Part shown: piece after piece, positions 59,771 to 64,000 of the stretch
How the letters are laid out: each line of letters begins with the position of its first letter
Numbering within the stretch: the first letter of the stretch is position 1
Source of the DNA: Thermus amyloliquefaciens
Lineage (GTDB): Bacteria > Deinococcota > Deinococci > Deinococcales > Thermaceae
Length of the DNA: 64,000 nucleotides
Assembly: GCF_000744885.1 (NCBI RefSeq)
Contig: NZ_JQMV01000003.1
Span: 744,001 to 808,000, forward strand
Direction of reading: 5' to 3'
The notes under the pieces: model-generated
The model's database searches: none
What the model was told of the DNA's origin: nothing
What the model saw: only the letters and a program-made list of their open reading frames with translations
Program-made: the position numbers and the translations under genes

Positions 59771-61978
59771 CTAGGCCGCCTTCTTGGCCCGCGCTTGGCG
59801 CAGTTCCTTCCAGAACACCACCAGGGCGCTCACCACGTAGATGGAGCTGTAGGTGCCCACGAAGATGCCCACGAAGATGGCTAAGGAGAAGTCCCTCAGG
59901 ACGCTCCCTCCCAGGAAGAGGAGGGCGAGGATGGGCAGGAGGGTGGTGAGGCTGGTCATCACCGTGCGGGAGAGGGTTTGGTTGATGGAGCGGTTGACCA
60001 TCTCCCGGTAGGGGACGCCCCGCAGGAGCTTTTGGTTTTCCCGGATGCGGTCGGAGACCACGATGGAGTCGTTGATGGAGTAGCCCACGATGGTGAGCAG
60101 GGCGGCGATGGTGGGGATGGAGAACTCCAGGCCCAAGAGGCTGTACATCCCCGCCACGATGGCCACGTCGTGGGCCACCGCCAGCACGCTGGCCACCCCG
60201 AAGGTCCAGTCAAAGCGGAAGGCCACGTAGATGAGGATGAGGCCGAGTCCCACCAGGACCGCCATCACCGCGTTTCGCCTGAGCTCCGAGCCGATGGCAG
60301 GCCCCACGGTCTCTGACGTGAGCACCGTGGCCTTCAGCTCCGAGGTCAAAAGCCTCTCCAGTTCCAGCCGCTTGGCGTCGCTAAGGGGGGGGAGCTTCAG
60401 GGAGAACTCGCGGAAGTCGGCGGTGGGGGCCTGCACCTGGGTGATCACCGCCTCCTTCGCGGGGAAGCCCTTCGCTTCTAGGAAGCGCCTTAGGGTATCC
60501 ACCCCCACCTCGGGGCCCGTGCGCAGGGTATACGCGGTGCCCCCGGTGAAGTCGATGGAGTAGTTGAACCCCTTTGTGAAAACCACCCCTGCCGCCAGCA
60601 CCGCCAGGAGGAGCGTGGCTACCGTGATGAAGCGGGCGGGGCCCATGAAGTTGAACCGGGGGTCCACCAGCCACATGGGAGGCCGGACCTCCCCCCGGTC
60701 GGCCAGGCGCTCCAGGAGGTAGCGGCTGAAGACCAGGTTGGAGAAGACGCTGGCCACCACGCCGATGGCCAGGATCACCGCGAAGCCCCGCACCGGCCCG
60801 GTGGCGTACTGGTACAGGGCCGCCGCCGCCAGGAGGTGGGCGATGTTCACGTCCAGGATGGTGAGGGTGGAGTGCTTGAAGCCCTCGGGGATGGCCTGGC
60901 GGAACCTTTTCCCGGCCCTGAGCTCCTCCTTGATGCGCTCAAAGGAGAGCACGTTCCCGTCCACCGCAGCCCCCAGGGTGAGCACGAGGCCGGCGATGCC
61001 CGGAAGGGTCAGGGTGGCCCCAAGGCCGGCAAGGAGGCCCAGGATGAGCACCGAGGTGTAGATGAGGCCCAAGGAGGCCACCAGGCCGAGGCTTGGGCCG
61101 TAGTAGGCGAAGATGAGGAGGAAGATGGCCAGGGTGCCGATCAAGGCCGAACGGATGCCGGCTTGGATGGCGTCCTGGCCCAGGGTGGGCCCGATGGCCC
61201 GGATCTCCGCCACCTCCAAGGAGACGGGCAAGGCCCCGGAGCGCAGCACCAGGGCGATCTCGCTGGCCTCCTCGAGGCCCGAAAGCCCCTCGATCACCGC
61301 CTGGCCGCCGGTGATGGCCTGGCGGATCACGGGGGCGGTGTAGACCTTGCCGTCCAGGACAATGGCCAGCTGCTTGCCCACGTTGGCCCGGGTGACCTCC
61401 TCAAACTTCTTGGCGCCTTCCGGGGTGAAGGTGAGGGAGACCTGGGGGCGGCCGAACTGGTCAAAGACCGCCCGGGCGTCGGCCAGATCCGCGCCCGTGA
61501 GGAGGGCTGGGCCCAGGTCCTCGGGCTTGATGAGGTCCTTTTCCAGATCCTCCCGCTTCAGGCGGGGGTTTTCCCGGAGGGCCTGGTTGATCTGGGCCAC
61601 GGTGGTGCCCGTGGCCCCCTCCTTGAGGATGCGGAACTCCAAGACCGCCCGCTGGCCGATGAGCTTGAGGGCCCGGTCCTGGTCGGCCTGGGAGAGGCCC
61701 GGCAGCTCCACCACGATGCGCTTTTGCCCCTGGATCTGGATCAGGGGTTCCGCCACCCCCAGGGCGTTGATGCGGTTTTCCAGCACGGTGCGGGCTTTTT
61801 CCAGGTCGTCGGGGGTGGGGTTTTCCACGGCGGCCTCGAGGACGATGCGCAGACCCCCTTTAAGGTCCAGGCCCAGCTTCACCTTGGGCTCCCCTGGGGC
61901 CCAGGGCTTCCAGACCATGAGGAGGGCCAGCAAGAAAAGGCCGAGGAGAAGCAGTCCGTTGAGCAGCTTGCGGTTCAT
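59771..61978 (-). CDS. secDF: Protein-export membrane protein SecDF (fused)
   Basis: 735 residues, SecD and SecF in one chain with 12 membrane segments. It uses proton motive force to complete Sec export. SecD part: KVKLGLDLKGGLRIVLEA, RINALGVAEPLIQIQG and the large P1 domain, then proton-relay Asp in TLGAAVDGNVLSFERIKEE; SecF part: FNYSIDFTGGTAYTL and VGYSINDSIVVSDRIREN with the second Asp/Arg set. Same architecture and length as the structurally studied Thermus protein. ATG 61978 with AAAGGGAAAG upstream. See the leader feature. Confidence 0.97.
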   Translation of the reverse strand: MNRKLLNGLLLLGLFLLALLMVWKPWAPGEPKVKLGLDLKGGLRIVLEAAVENPTPDDLEKARTVLENRINALGVAEPLIQIQGQKRIVVELPGLSQADQDRALKLIGQRAVLEFRILKEGATGTTVAQINQALRENPRLKREDLEKDLIKPEDLGPALLTGADLADARAVFDQFGRPQVSLTFTPEGAKKFEEVTRANVGKQLAIVLDGKVYTAPVIRQAITGGQAVIEGLSGLEEASEIALVLRSGALPVSLEVAEIRAIGPTLGQDAIQAGIRSALIGTLAIFLLIFAYYGPSLGLVASLGLIYTSVLILGLLAGLGATLTLPGIAGLVLTLGAAVDGNVLSFERIKEELRAGKRFRQAIPEGFKHSTLTILDVNIAHLLAAAALYQYATGPVRGFAVILAIGVVASVFSNLVFSRYLLERLADRGEVRPPMWLVDPRFNFMGPARFITVATLLLAVLAAGVVFTKGFNYSIDFTGGTAYTLRTGPEVGVDTLRRFLEAKGFPAKEAVITQVQAPTADFREFSLKLPPLSDAKRLELERLLTSELKATVLTSETVGPAIGSELRRNAVMAVLVGLGLILIYVAFRFDWTFGVASVLAVAHDVAIVAGMYSLLGLEFSIPTIAALLTIVGYSINDSIVVSDRIRENQKLLRGVPYREMVNRSINQTLSRTVMTSLTTLLPILALLFLGGSVLRDFSLAIFVGIFVGTYSSIYVVSALVVFWKELRQARAKKAA

Positions 61979-62023
61979 ACGCTTTCCCTTTGGGCACGCA
62001 TGTGCCCGATTAGCTATCCAAAG
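61979..62023 (-). promoter_or_regulatory. secDF leader with mutually exclusive RNA pairings at the ribosome binding site
   Basis: Read on the minus strand, GGGCAC-ATGC-GTGCCC (62007-61992) forms a hairpin ending at the AAAGGGAAAG ribosome binding site (61991-61982). Alternatively CTTTGG (62023-62018) pairs with CCAAAG (61993-61988), which covers the first part of that site and breaks the hairpin by using its last two C residues. A switch is inference. Confidence 0.4.
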
Positions 62024-62086
62024 CGCCTAGGGCCGTATATGCCAACTTGGGGTGCGCCGGATGTGGACCGGCAGAGGACCCAGCCC

Positions 62087-62419
62087 CTAGCCTCCATCCA
62101 TCTGGAGGCGGCCATAGAGAAGGTAGAGGTGGGAGGGGGAAAAGGCCCTGGGTACGGGGGGTTGGGCCTCCCGGTTCTGGGGTTTGAGGGGGAGATGGGG
62201 GGGGCGGGTGGGGACCTGAGCCAAGGGGATGGCCCCGCTCCCCTGCCGCTCCTCCTTCAGAACCCAGGCGGGTTCCTTGGCATGGAGCCCGGCTTCCCCC
62301 TTTACCCTCCCCGGGGGGATTGGGGCCGGACCCTGGAGGGCAAGGGCCAGGAGGGCCAGGACAAGGCCCCACCTCCCCCGGATACCCCCCAGATACCCCA
62401 AGGAGGGGCTAAGGGCCAT
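62087..62419 (-). CDS. Small secreted/anchored protein upstream of secDF (possible export monitor)
   Basis: 110 residues. Positive N-terminus (GGIRGRWG) then a hydrophobic core LVLALLALALQGPA typical of a signal peptide or anchor; then a Pro-rich region without recognisable domain (PTRPPHLPLKPQNREAQPPV, PRAFSPSHLYLLYGRLQMDGG). ATG 62419 has a strong GGAGG six nt upstream, so translation is likely; the longer frame from 62446 lacks this. It lies 47 nt after infB and 108 nt before secDF. I recognise no family. Its position and layout recall SecM/VemP/Apd-type arrest peptides that regulate sec genes, but no known arrest motif is visible. Confidence 0.55.
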   Translation of the reverse strand: MALSPSLGYLGGIRGRWGLVLALLALALQGPAPIPPGRVKGEAGLHAKEPAWVLKEERQGSGAIPLAQVPTRPPHLPLKPQNREAQPPVPRAFSPSHLYLLYGRLQMDGG

Positions 62420-62466
62420 GGGGCACCTCCTGGGGTAAGGCCACAAGACCCACCGCAGAGAACCCC

Positions 62467-64000
62467 CTACGCCGGCACCTCCACCACCTGGAACACCTCG
62501 ATGACATCTCCTTCCTGGAAGCTGTCAAACCCCTCCAGGCCGATGCCGCACTCGTAACCCTGGGCCACCTCCCGCACGTCCTCCTTGAAGCGCTTGAGGC
62601 TGGCCATCTTGCCCTTCCAGATCTCCTCGCCCCGGCGCAAAACCCTTACCTCGGCGCCCCGCACCACCTTGCCCTGGGTGACCATGCATCCCGCCACCTG
62701 TTTGCCCCCGGGCAGGCGGAAGATGGCCCGAACCTCGGCCCGGCCCAGAACCTCCTCCTTGAATACGGGCTCCTTCTGCCCCTTGACCATGGCCCGCACC
62801 TCGTCGATGAGGTCGTAGATGATGCGGAAGGTCTTGAGGAGCACCCCCTTCTGCTCCGCTGCCTTTTTCACCGAGCCCGGGGGGTTCACCCCGAAGGCCA
62901 GGATGGCGGCGCCCGCCGTCTGCGCCAGGAGGACATCGGACTCGGTAGGGGCCCCCACCTGGGCCAGGAGGACGTTGATCTTCACCTCCTCGGTGCTTTC
63001 CTTGGCCAGGATGTGCTGGATGGCCTCCAGGGAGCCCTGGGTATCCGCCCGCAGGATCAGGTTCACCTCCTTCTTCCCCTCCTCCTGGAGGGCGCGCAGG
63101 AGGTCCGCCATGGTCTTGGGGCGGCGCTCCCGCTCCGCTTCCTCCCGGGCCCTTCGCTCCTCCTTGCGCTCCTCAGTGATCTCTTTGGCCGCCTCGAGGT
63201 CCGGCACCCACTCCACCACATCCCCCGCATGGGGAAGCTCCTGGAAGCCCAAAACCTGCACGGCGCTCCCCGGGCCCGCCTCCTTGCGCTGGTTGCCGTC
63301 GGCGTCCATCATGGCCCGGATGCGGCCGTACACTTCGCCGGCCACCACGTAATCCCCCACCCGGAAGGTGCCCTCCTGGACCAGCATGTTGGCGATGATC
63401 CCCGCCTGCTTGTCCAGCCGGGACTCGAGGATAACCCCCCTGGGTTCGGCGTTCGGGTCGGCCCGGTAGTCCTCCAGCTCGGCGATGAGGAGGATCATCT
63501 CCAAGAGGTCCTGGACCCCCTGGCCGGTCTTGGCGCTGATGGGCACCACGATGGCCTCCCCGCCGTACTCCTCGGGCACGAAACCCCGCTCCATCAGCTG
63601 CCGCTTGACCCGGTCGGGGTTGGCCTGGGGCAGGTCCATCTTGTTCAGGGCGAAGATGATCCTGGCCCCGGCGGCCTTGGCGTGGGCGATGGCCTCGTCC
63701 GTCTGGGGCATGATCCCGTCGTCGGCGGCGATGACGATGACGGCGATGTCCGCCACCTTGGCCCCCCGCTGCCGGATGGTGGTGAAGGCCTCGTGCCCCG
63801 GGGTGTCGATGAAGACCACGGTGCCCTGGGGGGTTTTCACCTCAAAGGCGCCCACGTGCTGGGTGATCCCCCCGGCTTCCTTTTCGGCCATGCGGCTTTT
63901 TCGCAAATAGTCCAGCAGGGTGGTCTTCCCGTGGTCCACGTGGCCCATGATGACCACCACGGGAGGCCTTCTGGGGAGGGCTTTCCTGCGCTTTTCCTCC
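62467..64000 (-). CDS. infB: Translation initiation factor IF-2, 5' end outside window
   Basis: Visible are the last about 511 residues. G1 VIMGHVDHGKTTLLDYLR, G2 AGGITQHVGAF, G3 DTPGHEAF, G4 NKMDLP and SAKTGQGVQDLLE form the GTPase domain, followed by domain II (ESRLDKQAGIIANMLVQEGTF), III (ADTQGSLEAIQHIL) and IV (fMet-tRNA binding, IFRLPGGKQVAGCMVTQG). It brings initiator tRNA to the 30S subunit. Only a short N-terminal extension is expected to be missing. Next gene on the same strand is the small secreted protein. Confidence 0.97.
   Translation of the reverse strand, partial: EEKRRKALPRRPPVVVIMGHVDHGKTTLLDYLRKSRMAEKEAGGITQHVGAFEVKTPQGTVVFIDTPGHEAFTTIRQRGAKVADIAVIVIAADDGIMPQTDEAIAHAKAAGARIIFALNKMDLPQANPDRVKRQLMERGFVPEEYGGEAIVVPISAKTGQGVQDLLEMILLIAELEDYRADPNAEPRGVILESRLDKQAGIIANMLVQEGTFRVGDYVVAGEVYGRIRAMMDADGNQRKEAGPGSAVQVLGFQELPHAGDVVEWVPDLEAAKEITEERKEERRAREEAERERRPKTMADLLRALQEEGKKEVNLILRADTQGSLEAIQHILAKESTEEVKINVLLAQVGAPTESDVLLAQTAGAAILAFGVNPPGSVKKAAEQKGVLLKTFRIIYDLIDEVRAMVKGQKEPVFKEEVLGRAEVRAIFRLPGGKQVAGCMVTQGKVVRGAEVRVLRRGEEIWKGKMASLKRFKEDVREVAQGYECGIGLEGFDSFQEGDVIEVFQVVEVPA

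Follow-up and report, generated by a model that had tools for sequence, protein, structure and literature searches.

The closest described relatives of the locus studied here come from the work of Fujiwara et al. 2024 (PMC10987492), in which 30,175 genomes were screened with four sequence criteria: (i) an upstream ORF (uORF) of a sec gene that encodes a small protein of unknown function, (ii) an N-terminal secretion signal or TM segment, (iii) a C-terminal sequence conserved among homologues and (iv) more than 30 residues between the signal and the C-terminal motif. The candidates tested in that study stalled ribosomes, and among them were three families whose conserved residues reach the stop codon, uDF_NAP-stop and uA_NSP-stop of Bacteroidota and uDF_DGMK-stop of Clostridia, and whose arrest occurred chiefly while the stop codon occupied the A site (PMC10987492). 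Termination is also the point of arrest for the Clostridioides difficile homologue of CliM, a clostridial peptide of yidC that forms helices in the exit tunnel; such helical tails can block release-factor accommodation (PMC13183943). In apidaecin-induced stalling at stop codons, a C-terminal Gly of the nascent protein is enriched (PMC7544508). No arrest peptide in Deinococcus-Thermus was found by our literature search, and neither Deinococcus nor Thermus is mentioned in PMC7897499, in PMC12992588 or in the main text of PMC10987492, whose data tables may hold a Deinococcota cluster.

We analysed a stretch of 64,000 nt from Thermus amyloliquefaciens (the window), in which a uORF lies between infB and secDF (Table 1). 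A sequence-only reading had described it as an ORF of 110 codons starting at ATG 62419, with GGAGG six nucleotides ahead and its end 108 nt before secDF, and these coordinates were verified, the distance being counted from the uORF stop to the secDF ATG (61978). The hydrophobic core WGLVLALLALAL and the Pro-rich stretch of the same reading were both present, but the Pro-rich part forms the middle of the peptide and not its tail. The tail given there, PRAFSPSHLYLLYG, was wrong; the real C-terminus is ...LYLLYGRLQMDGG-stop, and it is this end that is conserved.

Table 1. Features of the infB-secDF region, in positions of the window
Feature	Position	Strand	Remarks
uORF, candidate Sec-monitoring arrest peptide gene	62087..62419	-	ATG, 110 codons, TAG; family conservation and coding selection
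Shine-Dalgarno GGAGG of uORF	62426..62430	-	6 nt before ATG; direct reading
Hydrophobic core WGLVLALLALAL of N-terminal signal	62336..62371	-	R14 and R16 ahead; hydropathy and AlphaFold2 helix 13-29
Conserved mid block GLHAKEPAWVLKEER	62246..62290	-	Last residue 52 residues from stop; dN/dS 0.10
Pro-rich spacer, constant length, sequence unconserved	62129..62245	-	Block-to-stop distances; 26% ungapped identity
C-terminal motif LYLLYGRLQMDGG and stop codon, proposed arrest sequence	62087..62128	-	dN/dS 0.04
GCCGG/CCGGC hairpin	62056..62072	-	About 15 nt past uORF stop; longer hairpins there in related Thermus
GGGCAC/GTGCCC hairpin	61992..62007	-	Just upstream of secDF SD; without covariation
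secDF, proposed regulated gene	59771..61978	-	1412.7 bits to crystallised SecDF 3aqp
infB (IF2), upstream neighbour	62467..63960	-	Start 63960 is the ORF finder's choice; frame open to window edge

To determine the distribution of the family, 100 secDF loci of Deinococcota outside the genus Deinococcus were scanned on the forward strand for open frames of 60 codons or more that lay within 700 nt upstream of secDF and ended in [ED]GG-stop, with the reverse strand serving as control. Such a frame was observed at 85 of the 100 loci, whereas the control gave 1 of 100. A protein search recovered the ORF in nearly all of 27 Thermus genomes. Conservation of the ORF and of its last residues, proposed in the earlier reading as a check within Thermaceae, was found there and beyond. 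At 29 secDF loci outside Deinococcota no ORF ending in GG-stop was present upstream of secDF, and in the window one of about 48 approximate genes ends in GG. When tails were collected from 91 genomes, those of Thermus read LYLLYGRLQLEGG or MDGG (consensus LYLLYx[RK]LQ[LM][ED]GG-stop), those of Meiothermus RLYLVYARLQTDGG, those of family f4 RRFLQWMRLQLEGG, and those of Trueperaceae GRLLLDGG, GRRQTDGG or SRWQLEGG. The stop codon itself was TAG or TAA in Thermaceae (TGA once) and mostly TGA in Trueperaceae.

The uORF was absent from five of the 100 genomes (G053, G081, G083, G100 and G102), and in two of these, G081 and G102, infB and secDF overlap or abut. In six more genomes the tail is changed or cut short, ending in EGC, DDG, EGA or RLQL-stop or stopping after NE or LE. 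These variant tails are found at L186 (G110), at L173 and L174 (G055, G054), at L147 (G029), at L166 (G046) and at L170 (G057), where the frames end in RLQL-stop, RWLE-stop, RWNE-stop, RLQLEGC-stop, RLQTDDG-stop and SLQIEGA-stop; as natural mutants they are of use for arrest assays. One Calidithermus copy (G030) reads through the expected stop position. At L210 (G018, Thermus) and L148 (G044, a Meiothermus MAG), the uORF frame shifts in mid-gene beside runs of C and the tail is intact in the other frame; these breaks are possibly sequencing errors or real decay.

Members of the family share one layout, in which a basic and then hydrophobic N-terminal signal is followed by a variable Pro-rich middle and a near-invariant tail. 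Judged from sequence, the uORF shows all four of the features on which the screen of Fujiwara et al. was built. It adjoins secDF, and its small product found no match among Pfam and NCBIfam profiles (i). A signal is indicated by a 12-residue N-terminal core scoring over 1.8 in Kyte-Doolittle hydropathy in 97% of 89 members (median 2.56), by net positive charge ahead of this core in 94% of them, and by the AlphaFold2 model, which consists of a signal helix (13-29), disorder and a short C-terminal helix (95-107) with a pTM of 0.24 (ii). The C-terminal sequence is conserved among homologues (iii), and the distance from the end of the core to the stop was never shorter than 76 residues in the 89 members, with a median of 85 and a 10th-90th percentile range of 78-90 (iv). 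A second hydrophobic stretch stands right ahead of the tail at L179 and L183 (G097, G096) and at L059 (G027).

A further regularity was observed in the distance between the mid block and the stop. In every one of 25 Thermus the distance from the KE[DE]R block to the stop is 51-52 residues, and in 16 Meiothermus it is 52-54 residues for the counterpart LEAK, while the Thermus spacer between block and tail (residues -51 to -15) aligns without gaps at 26% identity. Such a fixed ruler would fit a chain anchored at the peptidyl-transferase centre whose block has just emerged from the tunnel.

Codon-level selection was concentrated in the same two parts of the peptide. Among nine close Thermus of the window's clade, dN/dS was 0.04 in the last 13 codons (0.18 over all Thermus), where pS was 0.36, and 0.10 in the block around VLKEER; most other segments gave about 0.3-1.0. 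Synonymous variation was free in the E/D, G and G codons of the tail, so selection acts on the peptide and not on RNA or a Shine-Dalgarno-like signal. Judged by this conservation, the uORF that separates infB from secDF is a genuine gene under selection.

The neighbourhood of the uORF was also compared between genomes. In six genomes where infB was not found upstream in the DNA examined, the uORF still precedes secDF; and in seven Meiothermus/Calidithermus-type genomes another gene stands between infB and the uORF, which nevertheless still adjoins secDF. By gene order, then, the uORF goes with secDF rather than with infB. The inserted gene resembles the periplasmic head of SecD (matches of about 107-250 aa, 32-46% identical) and is found at L147, L153, L159, L151, L155, L166 and L158 (G029, G033, G036, G039, G040, G046 and G047). 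In many genomes the uORF starts a few nucleotides past the infB stop or overlaps it, and its gap to secDF ranges from 60 to 200 nt.

On these grounds we consider it likely that the product of the uORF is a ribosome-arrest peptide that monitors Sec and regulates secDF. In this proposal, the short helical tail and the acidic-Gly-Gly end would slow peptide release from within the exit tunnel while the stop codon occupies the A site. The ribosome would be set free once SecYEG, SecA and SecDF pull on the exported N-terminus; during slow export, ribosomes would linger at the end of the uORF, and secDF expression would be raised via the mRNA. The stall is probably one of termination, since the motif abuts the stop codon, apidaecin stalls at stop codons favour a C-terminal Gly and CliM-type helical tails can block the accommodation of release factors. 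As TAG, TAA and TGA all occur at the end of the uORF, the arrest would be independent of which release factor is used.

Compared with the three stop-codon families of Fujiwara et al., the Thermus uORF, a candidate, has the same short frame before secDF or secA, an N-terminal signal, a variable middle and conserved residues at the stop; it differs in ending in [ED]GG instead of Pro or DGMK and in belonging to another phylum, where it is nearly phylum-wide. VemP of Vibrio (secD2F2) is likewise an export monitor upstream of secDF-type genes with a signal sequence and a long spacer, but it arrests elongation within its ORF, its motif was not recognised in the Thermus uORF, and its spacer has a median of 133 residues (PMC10987492) against 85 in the Deinococcota uORFs. 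With SecM, ApdA, ApdP, ApcA and the RQH family, the genetic layout and the proposed logic are the same; RAPP-, RAGP- or RAPG-like motifs of the SecM/Apd/Apc/RQH type were found in the last 15 residues of none of 91 members. The modelled C-terminal helix recalls the exit-tunnel helices of CliM, which is a YidC monitor of Clostridia with a different conserved motif. Apidaecin arrest resembles the proposed stall in that ribosomes are held at termination and a C-terminal Gly of the nascent protein is favourable (PMC7544508), but apidaecin is a separate antimicrobial peptide that acts in trans and not an encoded leader, and it is taken as a mechanistic hint only. The acidic-Gly-Gly-stop end is very probably an arrest motif, one undescribed in the literature searched.

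The idea of a Thermus export-monitoring leader peptide stood as far as the sequence criteria and conservation go, but the other half of the sequence-only reading, an RNA switch made by two exclusive pairs of arms, was not supported. The arms GGGCAC (62007..62002) and GTGCCC (61997..61992), as well as CTTTGG and CCAAAG, were present as written. However, the first pair never covaries: among eight close Thermus it was paired in 92% (91.7%) of cells with zero compensatory changes. The second is not conserved, being paired in 73% (72.7%) of cells, no better than slid controls. The stalling model also gave no unmasking of the secDF Shine-Dalgarno. Leaders were folded at 37 C, and those of Thermaceae also at 65 C, either bare or with a ribosome placed on the uORF stop; the mean accessibility moved from 0.455 to 0.479 with the ribosome, and a scan of 12 modelled ribosome positions showed no step in accessibility at the uORF stop. 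Windows around the stop showed no peak of complementarity to their own SD, with the SDs of other genomes as control. Since the models showed no unmasking, the route from stalling to secDF may be RNA fold, transcription or mRNA stability. A scan for consensus promoters and intrinsic terminators found none. Rfam returned sub-threshold microRNA-type matches only, in the Pro-rich GC segment, which were taken as chance.

A different RNA element was found in another Thermus clade, where ten genomes (G005, G006, G008, G010, G012, G013, G018, G019, G021 and G024; for example L045 and L046) carry, past the uORF stop, a 9-bp hairpin whose GGGAAGG loop is invariant. Its stem was tested with hand-set arms, with loop spacers taken out, identical arms merged and one aligner-misplaced sequence dropped; double changes were observed at seven of the nine pairs, and 98.4% of cells were paired against 80.6% in shuffles. 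The sequence CUUCCC, complementary to the loop, lies downstream in 10 of 10 genomes, and loop and complement could possibly form a pseudoknot or a switch. In the window's clade, a hairpin of the GCGC[CT]GG type occupies a similar position.

Other explanations of the uORF were weighed against the proposed arrest peptide. The peptide could act in trans, either as a small partner of SecDF, secreted or in the membrane, or through a free C-terminus (LEGG) read by a C-terminus-recognising protein, in which case the tail would serve for binding or processing. The gene's linkage to secDF would suit this, the signal-like N-terminus could place the tail outside the cytoplasm, and proteases and PDZ-type domains can recognise C-terminal motifs, so that C-terminal conservation alone could reflect such recognition. 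We nevertheless regard a role in trans as unlikely: the model holds no folded domain, conservation is limited to about 15 residues and one block, the uORF is lost in some genomes that keep secDF, and an exact, unconserved tether of 51-52 residues is hard to explain in a free peptide and natural in one held by the ribosome. The C-terminal GG also recalls a sulfur-carrier or ubiquitin-like protein of the ThiS/MoaD/TtuB type, a reading we give hardly any weight, because the product has an N-terminal signal and Pro-rich disorder; a beta-grasp GG carrier was rejected on the Pfam negative, to which the NCBIfam negative adds, and on the low-pTM model, which contains helices only and neither strands nor a beta-grasp fold.

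That the uORF is merely a translated spacer, coupling infB to secDF translation or protecting the mRNA without arrest, would suit its direction, which is that of the infB operon, and its start, which in many genomes lies near the infB stop or overlaps it. Coupling would have no need of the conserved last 13 amino acids, however, the uORF persists without infB upstream, and the 60-200 nt before secDF are a long way for coupling by simple reinitiation, so we find such a spacer very improbable. GC-rich DNA does yield long spurious frames, several of them in this same gap, but a chance ORF is refuted by conservation and has next to no probability in view of the forward-to-reverse count (85/100 vs 1/100), the purifying selection at codon level and the constant ruler.

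Our fullest version of the arrest-peptide reading, to which we give slightly less than an even chance, joins several parts: a vertically inherited, nearly phylum-wide Deinococcota monitor; a new termination arrest at acidic-Gly-Gly-stop that would act alike with RF1 and RF2; a ruler of about 52 residues that would place the block beyond the tunnel exit; and an output by way of RNA folds that differ between lineages, for instance the GGGAAGG-loop hairpin and its complement CUUCCC.

For experiments, T. thermophilus offers a practical system, because the SecDF of genome G026 is nearly identical to the crystallised 3aqp, which we take to come from T. thermophilus, and the same genome carries the uORF, ending in KLFLLFARLQLEGG-stop. 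Ribosomes of Thermus serve as a standard model in structural work, and with a carrier whose SecDF is so close to 3aqp, both the stall and its export dependence are directly testable. Sec-linked arrest peptides have so far been described as patchy and narrowly distributed; unlike them, this uORF family was found in almost every Thermus-lineage genome examined. If the proposal is true, the arrest motif would be new, with a termination stall at Gly-Gly-stop, and it would be relevant to the means by which nascent chains can block either release factor.
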